From Siphonodentalium dalli (lineage: Eukaryota; Mollusca; Scaphopoda; Gadilida; Siphonodentaliidae), in contig CP136069.1 in the NCBI GenBank assembly GCA_032622095.1, positions 160,629,043 to 160,693,042 of the forward strand: a stretch of DNA of 64,000 nucleotides, in the 5' to 3' direction. Shown here in pieces: positions 40,970-49,850 of this stretch. Within the stretch, counting starts at the first letter, position 1, and each line of letters begins with the position of its first letter. The position numbers were made by a program, and so were the translations under genes. The notes beneath the pieces were generated by a model. The model saw only the letters and a list, made by a program, of their open reading frames with translations. It was not told the DNA's origin and did no database searches.

Positions 40970-41300
40970 TATATATGTTCTACATCCATATATAGCTTAT
41001 ACATCCATATATAGGTTATACATCCATATATAGGTTCTACGGCCATATATATGTTATACATCCATATATATGTTCTGCATCTAGATATAGATTCTACATC
41101 CATATATAGGTTATACATCCATATATAGGTTCTACATCCATTTATAGGTTCTACATCTATATATAGGTTCTACATCCATATGTAGGTTCTACATCCATAT
41201 GTTCCACATCCATATAGTGGTTCTACATCCATTTTATAGGTTCTACATCGATATATAGGTTCTACATCGATATATATGTTCTACATCCATATATAGGTTC
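40970..41300. repeat. 19-bp minisatellite, about 17 copies
   Basis: The unit is approximately TTCTACATCCATATATAGG, with variants (TTATAC, CATCGATATATATG). Short frames over it are not genes. Confidence 0.9.
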
Positions 41301-42120: not shown

Positions 42121-43412
42121 CTGAAATGACACGTTTGTCCTGATCACACACACATACGCTGTCACTAATTTAGCTAACGGGTATTTCGTTTGGCGCCAAC
42201 CCGATTGAGTTTGTATTGAGACATCAAATGCAGAGCGAGACTGTACGTTGTGCGCCAACACTTTATCATAATCCTATTGTCTGGACACACTTTCTCCCTC
42301 TTTTCCTCTTGAGTAGACCGTTACTCGATCAAGCTATAATTATATGAATGACTTTCATAAAATCGCCATAGATTAAACCAGTCTGATTAATCATTACATA
42401 CATGTAATTTCATGAGAGACACCTCATCATACACAATTGAATATATCCCATTTAAAGATGGATTATCTCTTTAAATAACAAATTTTAAATAGTTGCGTGG
42501 GTATAAAATAATAGATATGAACTGAAGACCTATGTCCGGAAAAGCTTCTATCAATTAATATTGATTTTACTTCGAATATTAAATCGGGCCCATTTATGTT
42601 ACTATTTTTAGAACCGACCATTCGGATGAGACCGTATTGCTATATAGAGCACTGGGCTGTTCCTACGGCTACGCAACGAATGTCAAATGTCACAGATTGG
42701 TTGTTTGTACTGTTTTGTTCCACAGATATAAGCAATAATGAGTATAAATAACGTTTATTCGTGACAAAATTGCACAATATAATTTCTGGTCTCTGTTAAC
42801 AGTAACCAATATTGTTCGATAGCTGAACAAACACATCTTTTTAGACCAGAAAATATTCGAAATAAAATTAATATTAATCGATAGAAGCATTTCCGGACAG
42901 GAGTCTTCGATTCAGATCTAATATTTTATACCCCGGTAACTATATAATACATGTTTACAAAGAGATAATCCACCTTTAAACACAACATACAGTGCCTGAT
43001 TATGATGCTTTTATGCAGATTATACACCTGTCTTTGTTCTAATGTAAGATAAGATGGTGTCAATTTCTGCAGTTCAATTAATTGTATAATCATATTGACT
43101 CAATCCATGGGCTACTTAATGTTCAAGGTGTCCAAGTATACGAAGGTACTCAACTTTCCAAATGTATAAACCTAAGAATTGTCCTGTTAATGATATGGGA
43201 TGCGACCACACTTCAAATGGATAAATGACATATGTAGAATACACCAATTCGAGTACTGTCAACATTATTATTATTTATCAACATTGTTGTGAATAATTTG
43301 ACCACTAAAGTTATGTACTGGTGACACTGGAAACCCACATTATACTCTGGCATATCATGCTCGGAACGTGAGCAGAATACTGGAGTTCTATATGATAATA
43401 TGCTGATAAACC
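42121..43412. other. Probable intron or flank; dispersed duplicate at 42840-42990
   Basis: Upstream lectin exons were not identified. Bases about 42840-42990 (ATTAATCGATAGAAGCATTT, CCGGACAGGAGTCTTCGATT) match 7950-8090 beside the GPCR. Confidence 0.45.
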
Positions 43413-43890: not shown

Positions 43891-44134
43891 GTAAACATAA
43901 CATTACTGGCCTGAATGCGTGTGCATGGTTTAAATCATAGGTTTAAATATTCTGAATTTTATGAGCTAATCAGCAAAAAATAATGCCAAAAATGCCATTA
44001 TTTGTCTGACTGAATCAAACACTGCAGAAGGAGTGGTACCGAGTACTGATGATAGTACATGCAATAGTACACGAACACTCCCCGTCCATAAGAATACGGC
44101 AAGCCATACAATAATGGCCCCTTTTTGTAAATAA

Positions 44135-44469
44135 TGTACACTGAAAAAAGACAACCAAAGTGATTAAGATTGCTTAGTCACTACCATTGTCTCAGATTCA
44201 ACTATGATTGGTAGTCATTCTGCTTAATGGTAGAATCTTAGTCGTGATGACTAATGGCCGAATCTTAGTCGTGATGACTAAGGGTCGAAACATAGTCATT
44301 CTGATTAATGCCCGAATCTTAGTCGTGATGACTAAGGGTTGAAACATAGTCATTCTGACTAAGCCAAGGCAATTAAATTAGCCATCATGACTAAGTTGTT
44401 ATGTTAGTCAGTTTGACTAAATATGTTACTACTTAGTCACTTTGACTAGGATAATATCGATAACATCTT
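44135..44469. repeat. 335-bp direct repeat, left copy (long TSD)
   Basis: From TGTACACTGAAAAAAGAC to GATAACATCTT this matches 46994-47326 with about ten differences (roughly 97%). The block is rich in TTAGTC and GACTAA dyads. Confidence 0.9.
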
Positions 44470-46993
44470 CTTTTTTTTTTAAATGTTTATTACCCAAAGA
44501 TATACATATATAAGCAGTCATTTTACATACATGTGTACATTCAAACATTTATCAATGGGCCGTGTGGGGGAGGGGTAATCAAACCAACTTACATTTATAC
44601 ATACATTTGACTGGTGCGCGCGTTCCAGACGACCACATGTATTGTGCGTGTGGGCGTCTGGCATACTTTCGTACCACTGGTGGCAATATGAATGATGTTG
44701 TAGAAGAATGGTTACTGTAGTATATCAGTTGCTGGTAACGTTGTCTTGATCTCGACGTTGACATAATTTAGCTAAATTTATTTGTGCCACGGCAAAATCG
44801 AATATCGATCTTAAGGAGGTCATAACAATAGGCCGGTGCAAATGGCGCTTTTTGTTGTTGTTGAGAAATTCGTCATGGTTGTCGATTGAATTAAGTCGTT
44901 TTTGTACCACATTATTCGTTTAGTCTGGAGTCTGGATGATTGGACGATATATGTAGTTATTATCTTACAGATGTTTTTCGGTTTGCCCGGATAAATGGAA
45001 TGTATTTGTCGGTGGGCATATTATTATGTGAAGGCCAGTGCTTTCTCCAGAATTAACCACTTCTGTTGAAATGCTGTTATTTCCATGTTGCATCGTGCCC
45101 TTAACTTATCACAGTCATAACGTAATCTGAGATCATTAAAAAATTCGTTCAGGCTGAGTGATTTCGCGGAAAACTTTGCTTTATAAAGATATTGTTTTAA
45201 AATAAGTAAAAAATAGTTTATCACGCTGTTTGGTTCCAATGGGATAGCTCCAAGTAGCATGGTCTTTTTCGAAACACGTAAGTCGATGCCTTTGTCAGTT
45301 CCCCATTTGGTCAGTTTGTTTAAGAAAGACTGTACATATCTACAGTCCCAAAATATGTGTGAAATTGTTTCAATTTCTGTTTTGCATCTTTCGCATCTAT
45401 CATTTTGTCTTAGCTTTATTATATTAAGAAATCGATTGGTCGCAAGGATTCGAGTGTATATTCGATATTGTAACCATTGCAGTTTAGTATCAGGCGTCGT
45501 GGTGAACGGTAGTTTAAAGTGAGTGTCCCAAGAGTTGATTATACCTATTTTCTGCATGATGTTGGGGTGGGGGAAGTTGAATTGAGAATTCTGTAAAATT
45601 CGTGTCCACCTTTTTGGTCGCGTACAGTAGATACAAAATTGTCTGGACTAGCAATGGGCTAGCAATTCGTCTCAGTGGTTGGTCTAATTGTTTCGATATT
45701 TCCAATATTTGATACTGGTTAAAGTAATAAAGTTTGTTCTTATATGCTTAACATTGACTGTGGTGTGTGAAACTTTCCATCGCTCTGGATCAAATCGTTG
45801 ATGAAAATTACTCCCTTTGCCCTCCATGAGTTGAAATTGATGTATCGCCCATAGATAGTAATTGCTGGATTATTCCATATCGTTTTCGACAAAACATTTT
45901 GATTTTTGGAGTTCAATCTTAAATACTCACACCATGATGAAAATACATCTTTCCAAAATGGATTTGACAGCACGCTTAAGTGTTGTAATAGATATTTTCT
46001 GTCATAAGTGAGGTACAGGGGGTCATCTAAAATAGGAAGATCCGAGATGAGAGGTGCCCATTTGCATTTTTTTGTAATGAGGCGTCGTATCCAAGTGATT
46101 TTAATTGATGAATTGAATGTCTCCACATTAATCATTTTCAAGCCACCATCTGATATGTTACTGCAAATCTGTTGTCGACTGACTCGATCTCTTTTCGAAT
46201 TCCATAAGAAGTTATAGAGCAATGTGTTTAGCTTTTTATAAAATTCGCGGTGCGGATTAGGAAGAGTTAGAAATAGATGTGTCAATTTGGGGAGAATTAA
46301 TGTCTTGATGACTATTAATCTACCAATTGGTGTGAGCAACCGGTGTATCCATGATGTGATCGTCTTTCTTATTTCGTCCATTTTATCGTCATAATTACTT
46401 TGCATTTTTGGCAAGTCAATATTAAAATGGATCCCTAAAAATATAAATTGTTCAGTTACTGTGATACTTAAGTCGCGAATGAAGTCTGGTCTATCGTAAT
46501 TACGGGGCCCTACCCACGACGCCTGACACTTCTCTGGGTTAATTTTTAAACCAGATATCCGGGCAAAAACATCAAGCGTAGAATATGCTTCGCGAACACT
46601 CCTTTCTGAGCCGTCGAGAATAAGCTTTGTATCGTCCGCGTATTGTGTGATCTTATATTCTGAGCTGCCGAGATGAACACCATTTATATTCACATTCTGT
46701 CTTACCATTAGTGCTAGTATTTCTGCACACAGGAGAAAAATATAAGGCGATATTAGGTCCCCTTGTCGACAGCCTCTTGATAGCTTAAAAGTTTGTGAAA
46801 TGTGTCCATTTAAAAGTACAGAAGAGCTCGAGTTTCTATAGAGGATTGTAATCCATTTTTTCATGTCCACTCCAAAATTGAAAAAGTTTAAACATCTTTC
46901 TAAAAAACGCCACGATACAGAATCAAAGGCCCTTTCAAAGTCTACGAGGAGCAGGAGTCCCGGTATTTTGCGTTCATTACATTTGTGAATAAA
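44470..46993 (-). mobile_element. Tx1/L1-like LINE, 5'-truncated, with poly(A)
   Basis: On the minus strand the element ends in poly(A), seen as ten T at 44471-44480 directly against the left direct repeat. The 5' end is abrupt inside RT coding sequence at 46993, directly against the right direct repeat. The 3' UTR spans about 44481-45023. The flanking 335- and 333-bp repeats behave as a target-site duplication. Confidence 0.85.
45024..46993 (-). pseudogene. Tx1/L1-type ORF2 reverse transcriptase (frameshifted)
   Basis: The main frame (46993 to 45740) carries RT motifs LLVDFERAFDSVSW, LSRGCRQGDLISPYIFLLCA, QYADDTKLILDGS and GLKINPEKCQ. The phrase GCRQGDxxSP and the overall order fit the L1/Tx1 group and not CR1/Jockey. 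Two further frames continue the protein: about 45705-45580 (ISKQLDQPLRRIASPLL) and 45557-45024, which has the C-terminal RCERCKTE..SHIFWDC cysteine/histidine motif. At least two frameshifts plus loss of the N-terminal endonuclease make it inactive. The first codons of the open frame above 46993 belong to the flanking repeat. Confidence 0.9.
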
Positions 46994-47326
46994 TGTACAC
47001 TGAAAAAAGACAACCAAAGTGACTAAGATTTCTTAGTCACTACCATTGTCTCATATTCAACTATGATTGGTAGTCATTCTGATTAATGGTCGAATCTTAG
47101 TCGTGATGACTAATGGCCGAATCTTAGTCGTGATGACTAAGGGTCGAAACATAGTCATTCTGATTAATGGCCGAATCTTAGTCGTGATGACTAAGGGTTG
47201 AAACAGTCATTCTGACTAAGCCAAGGCAATTAAATTAGCCATCATGACTAAGTTGTTATGTTAGTCATTTTGACTAAATATGTTACTACTTAGTCACCAT
47301 GACTAGGATAATATCGATAACATCTT
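46994..47326. repeat. 333-bp direct repeat, right copy (long TSD)
   Basis: Partner of 44135-44469. The TTAGTC/GACTAA-rich sequence continues without a break to about 47400, so the LINE landed inside a pre-existing repeat element. Confidence 0.9.
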
Positions 47327-47559
47327 GACTAAGCTTGGTACAACTTAGTCACTATGACTAAGGTACTGTGTTTTGACTAACACGGTATCTTAGTCAAAGT
47401 GTGTCACGTGGTGTAGTTATGTATGATACCGTTTGTTCAAAAACAGTCAAAAATTGTCATCAATTTACTTGTGGGATGACTCACATAATTTGTTCTGCAC
47501 CTCATAAATGTATCCGATACGATCAACATTAGTCAAAAGTAAAACAAATTTGTTAACAA

Positions 47560-48110
47560 ATATTAGCCTTCGGTACAGGCTAATATTTCATGCCAATCTG
47601 ACGCTCTGGCATGCAAAAACTGCTTCTGCACAACCAAACAGGTAATTAAGTACATACCCAGAACGACACGATGTGTAAATGGGTTTGTCGATACGGCACG
47701 AGTGCTGTCGCGGAAGGATAGAACGAGAGGCCCTTGCGCCTCGAGTTCTATCCTTCCGCGACAGCACTCTTCCCGTATCGACAAACCCATTTACACATCG
47801 TGTCGTTCTGTGTTTATTACACGTTTCGCTTCCTAGAATCCGTGCATTAAAAATACAGGATTAATAGAAGGTTTATTTAGGCTCATACAGGGCGTGTTTG
47901 TCATGTGTGGTGATTCTGTTATTTAAATAGTTCCAGTTTCATGGTTGAGGCGAACGTCATGTACGTCATTTTACGTCAACGAGATGCGTATGGAACGTAC
48001 GTTCCATACGTATTTGTAAATATGGAACAGCAATAACACTGTACTTCTAGGAACAAGCGTGTAATACAGTCTAATATTGCATGCCAAAATTTCTTCACTA
48101 CAATCAAACA
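47560..48110. repeat. Dispersed repeat with internal hairpin, copy 1
   Basis: It contains CTAATATTTCATGCCAATCT (also CTAATATTGCATGCCAAAAT at about 48072), the 152-bp hairpin, and TTTCATGGTTGAGGCGAACG near the end. The last phrase recurs at about 49076, after a second hairpin of the same family. Confidence 0.6.
47659..47810. mobile_element. 152-bp near-perfect hairpin
   Basis: Arms of about 65 bp run from CAGAACGACACGATG through GGGTTTGTCGATACG and GTGCTGTCGCGGAAGGATAG to a GC-rich turn (GAGAGGCCCTTGCGCCTC). Only about two mismatches were seen between arms. Confidence 0.9.
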
Positions 48111-48760: not shown

Positions 48761-48828
48761 TATATGTCATTTGGAAATATAGGGAAAAGATATCCACAGA
48801 TCGACACAAGCGTGCGACTGTGGTTTTC

Positions 48829-48919
48829 GATACGACACGAGCGCCAGTGCGGAAGGATTGAACGAGTGGCGCATCTTAGAGTTATATCCTTCCGCGATGG
48901 CACAAGTGTCGTATCGACA
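48829..48919. mobile_element. Diverged hairpin related to 47659-47810
   Basis: TCGATACGACACGAGCGCCA and GCGGAAGGATTGAAC pair with a right arm of ATCCTTCCGCGATGGCAC and GTGTCGTATCGA. CGTCGTTCTGCG follows at 48938, as CGTGTCGTTCTG follows the 47.7-kb copy. TTTCATGGTTGAGGCGTTCG is at about 49076. Confidence 0.75.
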
Positions 48920-49437
48920 AACCCGCCAAAAACGCGCGTCGTTCTGCGTTGTGTACACACCAAACCACCCAAGAATTAATAGCATTTATTAGAAAAAAAA
49001 CTTACAATGTTAATAAAGAAGCAGACAGCTAGTGCTTGTTTTTTCTTATGATGATTTTTTATTTTATATCTCCGGTTTCATGGTTGAGGCGTTCGTCATT
49101 TGCGTCGTGTGATATCGTCCGTTTCAGAAATGAGGACACGACCCAAGACGACGAACGGTATATTTTCAGGAACGGGCCTCTAAATGTCGATAACTACACG
49201 ACTTACCCGTCCACATGCTCTAAATACTCAAAAGACTTGTCAAAGCCATAGCACTATTCCCAGATATTTTCACTTTTTCGCACATAAGTTATTTATTACC
49301 ACATAATGAACAGATTTACAAACGATAACACTCTATTGTTCTGAAGAAAATTAATGATGTATCTAAATTCTATATATGACTTGAATGAGTCTTACTGTTG
49401 CGGAAGCATGAAACCGTCTCTAAACAGTTTTATTTCG

Positions 49438-49850
49438 ACGAATATACGCCGAACATCGGTGAATATACGCTGAAAGTCGGTGAATATACGCCGAACATCG
49501 GTGAATATACGCTGAAAGTCGGTGAATATACGCCGAACATCGGTGAATATACGCTGAAAGTCGGTGAATATACGCCGAACATCGGTGAATATACGCTGAA
49601 AGTCGGTGAATATACGCCGAACGTCGATAAATATACGCCGAATGACGGTGAATATACACGCACATCAGTGAATATACGCCGAACATCGATGAACATACGC
49701 CGAACATCGGTGAACATACGCCGAATGACGGTGAATATACGCCGCACATCAGTGAATATACGCCGAACATCGGTGAACATACGCCGAATGACGGTTAATA
49801 TACGCCGAACATCGGTGAATATTCACCGAAGGCTTATACGCCGAACATCA
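49438..49850. repeat. 21-bp minisatellite, about 19 copies
   Basis: The unit is GAATATACGCCGAACATCGGT with an alternating variant GAATATACGCTGAAAGTCGGT in the left half (42-bp higher-order unit) and a CGAATGACGG variant on the right. Because 21 is divisible by three, long frames open on both strands (49398-50012 and others); these are repeat translations. Confidence 0.9.

Follow-up and report, generated by a model that had tools for sequence, protein, structure and literature searches.

The completion of a LINE insertion, meaning second-strand cleavage and 5′ joining, is the less understood half of the process. In the part of the source used here, the L1 site is written TT|AAAA, as seen on the opposite strand (PMC13295347). 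For zebrafish ZfL2-2 in chicken DT40 cells, the available portion of the report has one of 25 wild-type insertions with a target-site duplication (TSD) of 1228 bp (PMC2666801). For the human L1 insertions of Gilbert et al. in HeLa cells, “many L-TSDs”, which there means longer than 20 bp, are noted (PMC4245944). Excerpts of the latter paper and of a further one describe LINE 5′ joining both by annealing and by a direct route (PMC4245944, PMC4760211).

Here we examine a LINE copy of the scaphopod Siphonodentalium dalli that is probably the product of a single target-primed insertion with an exceptionally long TSD, of about 335 bp. Long LINE TSDs are already on record, and this case, rare as it is, fits within the known range. 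The window is the whole 64,000-nucleotide stretch of DNA that was analysed, and positions are counted from its first letter.

The LINE is a 5′-truncated copy on the minus strand, at 44470..46992, recognised by its RVT_1 and zf-RVT domains, its identity to sister copies and the end of homology to one of them, L044. Its poly(A) tail reads as poly(T) on the plus strand, at about 44471-44480, and tails are also present in sister copies. The copy retains reverse transcriptase and zf-RVT only, with a partial reverse-transcriptase reading frame at 45740..46992 (RVT_1, E 1.8e-23) and a C-terminal part at 45024..45647 that contains the zf-RVT domain (E 5.6e-7), both on the minus strand. Homology to L044 ends at 46992; L044 continues as GAATAAGATCGTAAATTAG, and the window at the same point reads GAATAA|ATGTACACTG. 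Past this point L044 carries GAATAAGATCG, in frame with the reverse-transcriptase sequence GFLAGRYIGDNTRLIYDLIHKCNER that its frame encodes there, and therefore the window LINE is cut off inside the reverse-transcriptase domain at its 5′ side. The next 529 nt of L044 have no blastn match in the window, and tblastx gives only matches with E of at least 0.5. The first-pass annotation had placed the poly(A) at the left and a truncated 5′ edge at the right, and both are borne out.

A sister copy, L076, has an APE-like endonuclease and reverse transcriptase in one frame, the arrangement by which L1-type elements are recognised. The best match of this frame among solved structures is human LINE-1 ORF2p (E 5.8e-75, residues 16-706), and its Pfam endonuclease match falls below the Pfam cut-off. 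The ORF2p match thus supports placing the window family among the L1-type LINEs, a broader placement than the Tx1-like one of the first-pass annotation. At the 5′ edge of the L076 copy (L076:2597-3289, minus strand) lies a reading frame with a THAP domain (Pfam PF05485, E 9.9e-13).

The family was searched in the window's own assembly (2.23 Gb, 9 contigs). The best 40 of 285 candidates were scored, comprising the window and 39 sisters, and 30 are given as loci, the window among them; these are the copies closest to the window's 3′ end and not a random sample. The 39 scored sisters are 92-98% identical to the 3′ 631 bp of the window LINE. The family is young, as several of its long copies share 99.8% identity with one another across some 1.7 kb.

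On either side the LINE is adjoined exactly by a direct repeat on the plus strand. The left one (about 44134..44469) ends in CATCTT just before the poly(T), and the right one (about 46993..47326) begins at the truncated 5′ edge, where LINE homology stops. Alignment of 44135-44469 with 46994-47326 (335/333 bp) gives 324 identities, 9 mismatches and one 2-bp gap, confirming the earlier description of abutting repeats about 97% identical. The likeness continues leftward by 1-2 bases, to 44133/46992, and a local alignment that takes in one mismatch and one gap carries it about 10 bases on, as far as 44124/46982. It is far above chance: the window scores 196, and 756 cross-pairings of 5′ edges with the 3′ flanks of other copies score 6-12, with three exceptions (21, 21 and 98) that we take to be shared repeats.

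The TSDs of sister copies were surveyed at 27 of the 29 sister loci, those with a located 5′ edge, in 3′ flanks to 1500 nt, so that longer TSDs would be missed. L042, whose 5′ edge is unsettled, and L044, internally deleted and without a located 5′ end, were omitted. A fixed rule assigns TSDs to 15 of the 27, 14 of them spanning 10-22 bp and the other 32 bp; these sizes are match lengths, to which microhomology or tail may contribute a few bases. Another 11 are ambiguous or have no TSD within 1500 nt. In the cross-pairing control a score of at least 10 is reached anywhere in the flank by 74 of 756 combinations; few of these would also adjoin the LINE tail, and the short TSDs are therefore sound as a group, with single ones at score 10-12 possibly due to chance.

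Confirmed long TSDs in other copies of the family, which the first-pass annotation had proposed to look for, number none in the 27 sisters within this flank length. L045 was considered as a second one and rejected. Its left flank has the target twice, with a 170-bp period, and its right side lacks a full unit; this LINE sits in a pre-existing tandem duplication that imitates a long TSD (L045 / L081 locus, G000:C8, about 24.366 Mb; same LINE family). The flank of L054 is AT-rich and repetitive, and this copy was left uncounted as ambiguous. In L059, L057 and L051 the two flanks match partly in direct orientation without the match adjoining the LINE, and none was counted as a long TSD; the match in L059, with 69 identical and 6 mismatched positions, is separated from the 5′ edge by 62 bp and from the 3′ end by 209 bp.

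The interspersed repeat whose left end is duplicated will be called T; the duplicated stretch also includes 5 bp (ATGTA) of the repeat that hosts T. The first copy of the T left end, at 44139..44469 on the plus strand, starts with CACTG, contains TGACTAA palindromes and is interrupted by the LINE. The second, at 46998..47404 on the same strand, continues past the LINE insertion point, and homology of the window to other T copies ends near 47404. Among the 52 T matches listed, many overlap in one array and two are the window's own; the others are 68-92% identical over parts. Most left edges start at or near CACTG, as do those of the window at 44139 and 46998, and T copies are rich in TGACTAA palindromes. 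The T stretch (412 nt), taken as single-stranded DNA, is predicted to fold far better than shuffled sequences (z -9.6). In the T copy at L003/L016 (G000:C7:205383160-205384809) an internal 27-bp repeat has expanded to an array of more than 1 kb. T is a candidate CACTA/CMC-like DNA transposon. Transposons of this kind have terminal inverted repeats and a fixed short TSD; the left terminus of T is CACTG or similar in several copies, and its right terminus was not located, some copies aligning with each other past 1.1 kb.

The host of T is part of another interspersed repeat, at 44062..44138 on the plus strand, which meets T as ATGTA|CACTG and resembles a SINE in appearance only. Of 12 other fetched copies none runs into CACTG, and most read TATATG or similar. 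Hence T had inserted into the SINE-like-looking repeat, and the LINE entered T later. To the right of T, nothing convincing of the remainder of the host repeat was found within the window, and a search with the left flank for a paralogous empty site returned, apart from itself, repeat-level matches only. Targeting of T as a habit of the LINE family was also considered and set aside: T and its host repeat are absent from the stretches examined at 29 of the 30 LINE loci, the window being the exception.

Other repeats are present in the surroundings. Inverted repeats are found at 47656-47813 (76-nt arms, 93% complementary, 6 nt spacer), with a related pair at about 48812-48958, and at 42477-42955 (104-nt arms, 83% complementary, 271 nt spacing). 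Tandem arrays are located at 49440-49830 (21-bp unit, 18.7 copies) and at 40970-41300 (19-bp unit, 17.6 copies).

Since the duplicated DNA is no unique sequence and forms the end of an older interspersed repeat, independent insertion of T and a pre-existing tandem pair became real alternatives. In this the earlier reading needs correction. The two T copies of the window are 97.3% alike (329 columns), compared with 76-87% to ten other aligned T copies, and the best partial match of T elsewhere is 92% over 104 bp. The direct repeat is therefore a local and recent duplication. Furthermore, ATGTA from the left flank also heads the right copy, and none of 11 other T left edges is preceded by ATGTA. 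That T inserted twice independently, once into the LINE, would agree with a right copy that begins only 5 bp outside the natural left end of T, and TA before the start of three other T copies might reflect a weak target preference. Against this stand the pattern of identities, the ATGTA flank common to both copies and the LINE not resuming beyond T, where the 529-nt tail of L044 would be expected; two insertions are ruled out on these grounds, with practically no probability left to them.

Tandem T pairs without a LINE, which the first-pass annotation had named as an observation that would speak for a pre-existing duplication, were not seen among 28 fetched T loci. Recognisable T 5′ ends are present in 21 of them, one each, and these represent 13 distinct places, since eight of the loci share a single array on C7 and two coincide on C2.

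The first-nick site in the window is TCTT|G, and 8 of the 12 sister sites listed are TT|R or AT|R, the exact nick being blurred where a T of the tail meets a T of the target. This is consistent with a site within the range of the family, whose motif is loose. At the 5′ junction, the LINE end TTTGTGAATAA (46982..46992) is 10/11 identical to the left flank TTTGTAAATAA at 44124-44134, which makes it a candidate annealing site; annealing there would leave one extra A in the right copy. The homeology score of 3 is the highest among 13 copies tested and is reached by 2.2% of 20,000 random pairings, a frequency uncorrected for the choice of measure. As a signal of annealing this is suggestive, not strong.

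In terms of timing, 9 substitutions separate the direct repeats. With ten T copies as outgroups, 5 of them are assigned to the left copy and 4 to the right one, which also carries the 2-bp indel; only one informative outgroup backs two of the changes on the left, and two on the right are neighbours that may stem from one event. For the window LINE the terminal branch is 0.009, with 17 private sites in 2103, and this 0.9% is an upper bound on the time since insertion. Half of the repeat divergence is 1.35%, so that the repeats are nominally more diverged. The counts of 9/668 for the repeats and 17/2103 for the LINE do not differ significantly (Fisher p = 0.25), and the Poisson probability of at least 9 substitutions is 0.15 if the rate is taken from the tree branch and 0.10 if it is taken from the private sites. 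The ages of duplication and LINE are compatible, and these figures also leave room for a duplication older than the LINE insertion. Repeat divergence, put forward earlier as an insertion clock independent of the element, agrees with the LINE age only within a wide error.

A single insertion probably produced the structure, as follows. The LINE would have nicked the plus strand of the old T repeat at about ACATCTT|GACTAAG, as read from the junction, and its RNA would have been copied from the poly(A) tail until copying halted early inside the reverse-transcriptase coding region, where the truncation is observed. The opposite strand would have broken about 335 bp away, in the host repeat just outside T, and filling in of both ends would have duplicated the stretch between the breaks. 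The cDNA end TTTGTGAATAA was probably joined by annealing to the homeologous target TTTGTAAATAA. A long TSD is the best-supported reading because the repeats abut the LINE exactly, the ages are compatible, the changes are split evenly, the first-nick site is in range and the ATGTA scrap was duplicated too; the ordinary TSDs of sisters (15/27) and the junction homeology, the strongest of the 13 copies tested, also count in its favour. Speaking against it, the left edge falls within 5 bp of the T terminus, on the outside, which the homeology accounts for in part and which is otherwise a coincidence, none of the 27 sisters has a confirmed long TSD, the apparent case being a tandem target, and the per-copy divergence of the repeats is nominally above the LINE branch. 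Of the earlier proposal of a long TSD made through a distant second-strand nick or gap repair, the very long TSD is thus the best-supported part, and the route has rivals.

The same structure would be mimicked exactly if the T stretch had been tandemly duplicated earlier and the LINE insertion had come with a deletion that started within the first T and ended immediately left of the second. L045 is a precedent in the same family, T is internally repetitive, with one copy holding the expanded 27-bp array, and the nominal excess of repeat divergence would suit an older duplication; yet two events are required, paired T 5′ ends are missing from the 21 fetched loci with a T 5′ end (13 distinct places), and a copy divergence matching the LINE age would be a coincidence, which makes this history unlikely. 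We give a similarly small chance to template copying or unequal exchange, in which the cDNA end or the filled allele pairs at TTTGTRAATAA with the sister chromatid or the empty homologue, so that synthesis or crossover brings in the second T and a distant second nick is unneeded. The junction homeology and a right copy continuous through the insertion point agree with this, and the strong single-stranded fold of T could favour breaks or stalled forks; it takes more steps than a plain long TSD, and the homeology is short, with one mismatch, an extra A and the uncorrected null frequency. Doubtful, too, is that no distant nick was involved and the unfinished cDNA used the 11-nt homeology to pair with an intact sister target, from which it copied the hairpin-rich T end, recombinational gap repair then completing the insertion. 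Finally, haplotypes with and without the LINE might have been joined in tandem by the assembly. Allelic divergence of about 2.7% is plausible in a highly variable animal and would fit the 2.7% difference between the copies, but the window contains no N, the join would need to coincide exactly with the LINE/target homeology, and the insertion otherwise has an ordinary LINE structure; an artefact is very improbable.

With a long TSD as the preferred reading, the locus offers a natural insertion whose stagger is about tenfold the largest TSD of 27 sisters, with a hairpin-rich target and a homeologous 5′ junction, and hence a usable case for the study of completion. L045 serves as a warning that tandemly duplicated targets can imitate long TSDs.

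The window family is like human LINE-1 in having endonuclease and reverse transcriptase in one frame (in the sister copy), zf-RVT behind the reverse transcriptase (in the window copy), a poly(A) tail and sister TSDs mostly of 10-15 bp. It is a separate family, and the TT|AAAA site, as given in the part of the source used, is not evident in it, 8 of 12 listed sister sites being TT|R or AT|R on the nicked strand (PMC13295347). Compared with the annealing pathway, so far as the excerpts describe it, the window insert is likewise 5′-truncated with a LINE end that resembles the target (PMC4245944, PMC4760211), whereas its homeology is imperfect, 11 nt long, leaves an extra base at the join and speaks from one junction. 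From the ZfL2-2 and HeLa L1 insertions, as presented in the available portions of those reports, it differs as a copy known from the assembly of an animal genome, its history read from the filled site, and in a target that is the end of a palindrome-rich repeat; like them, it has a duplication far longer than 20 bp (PMC2666801, PMC4245944).
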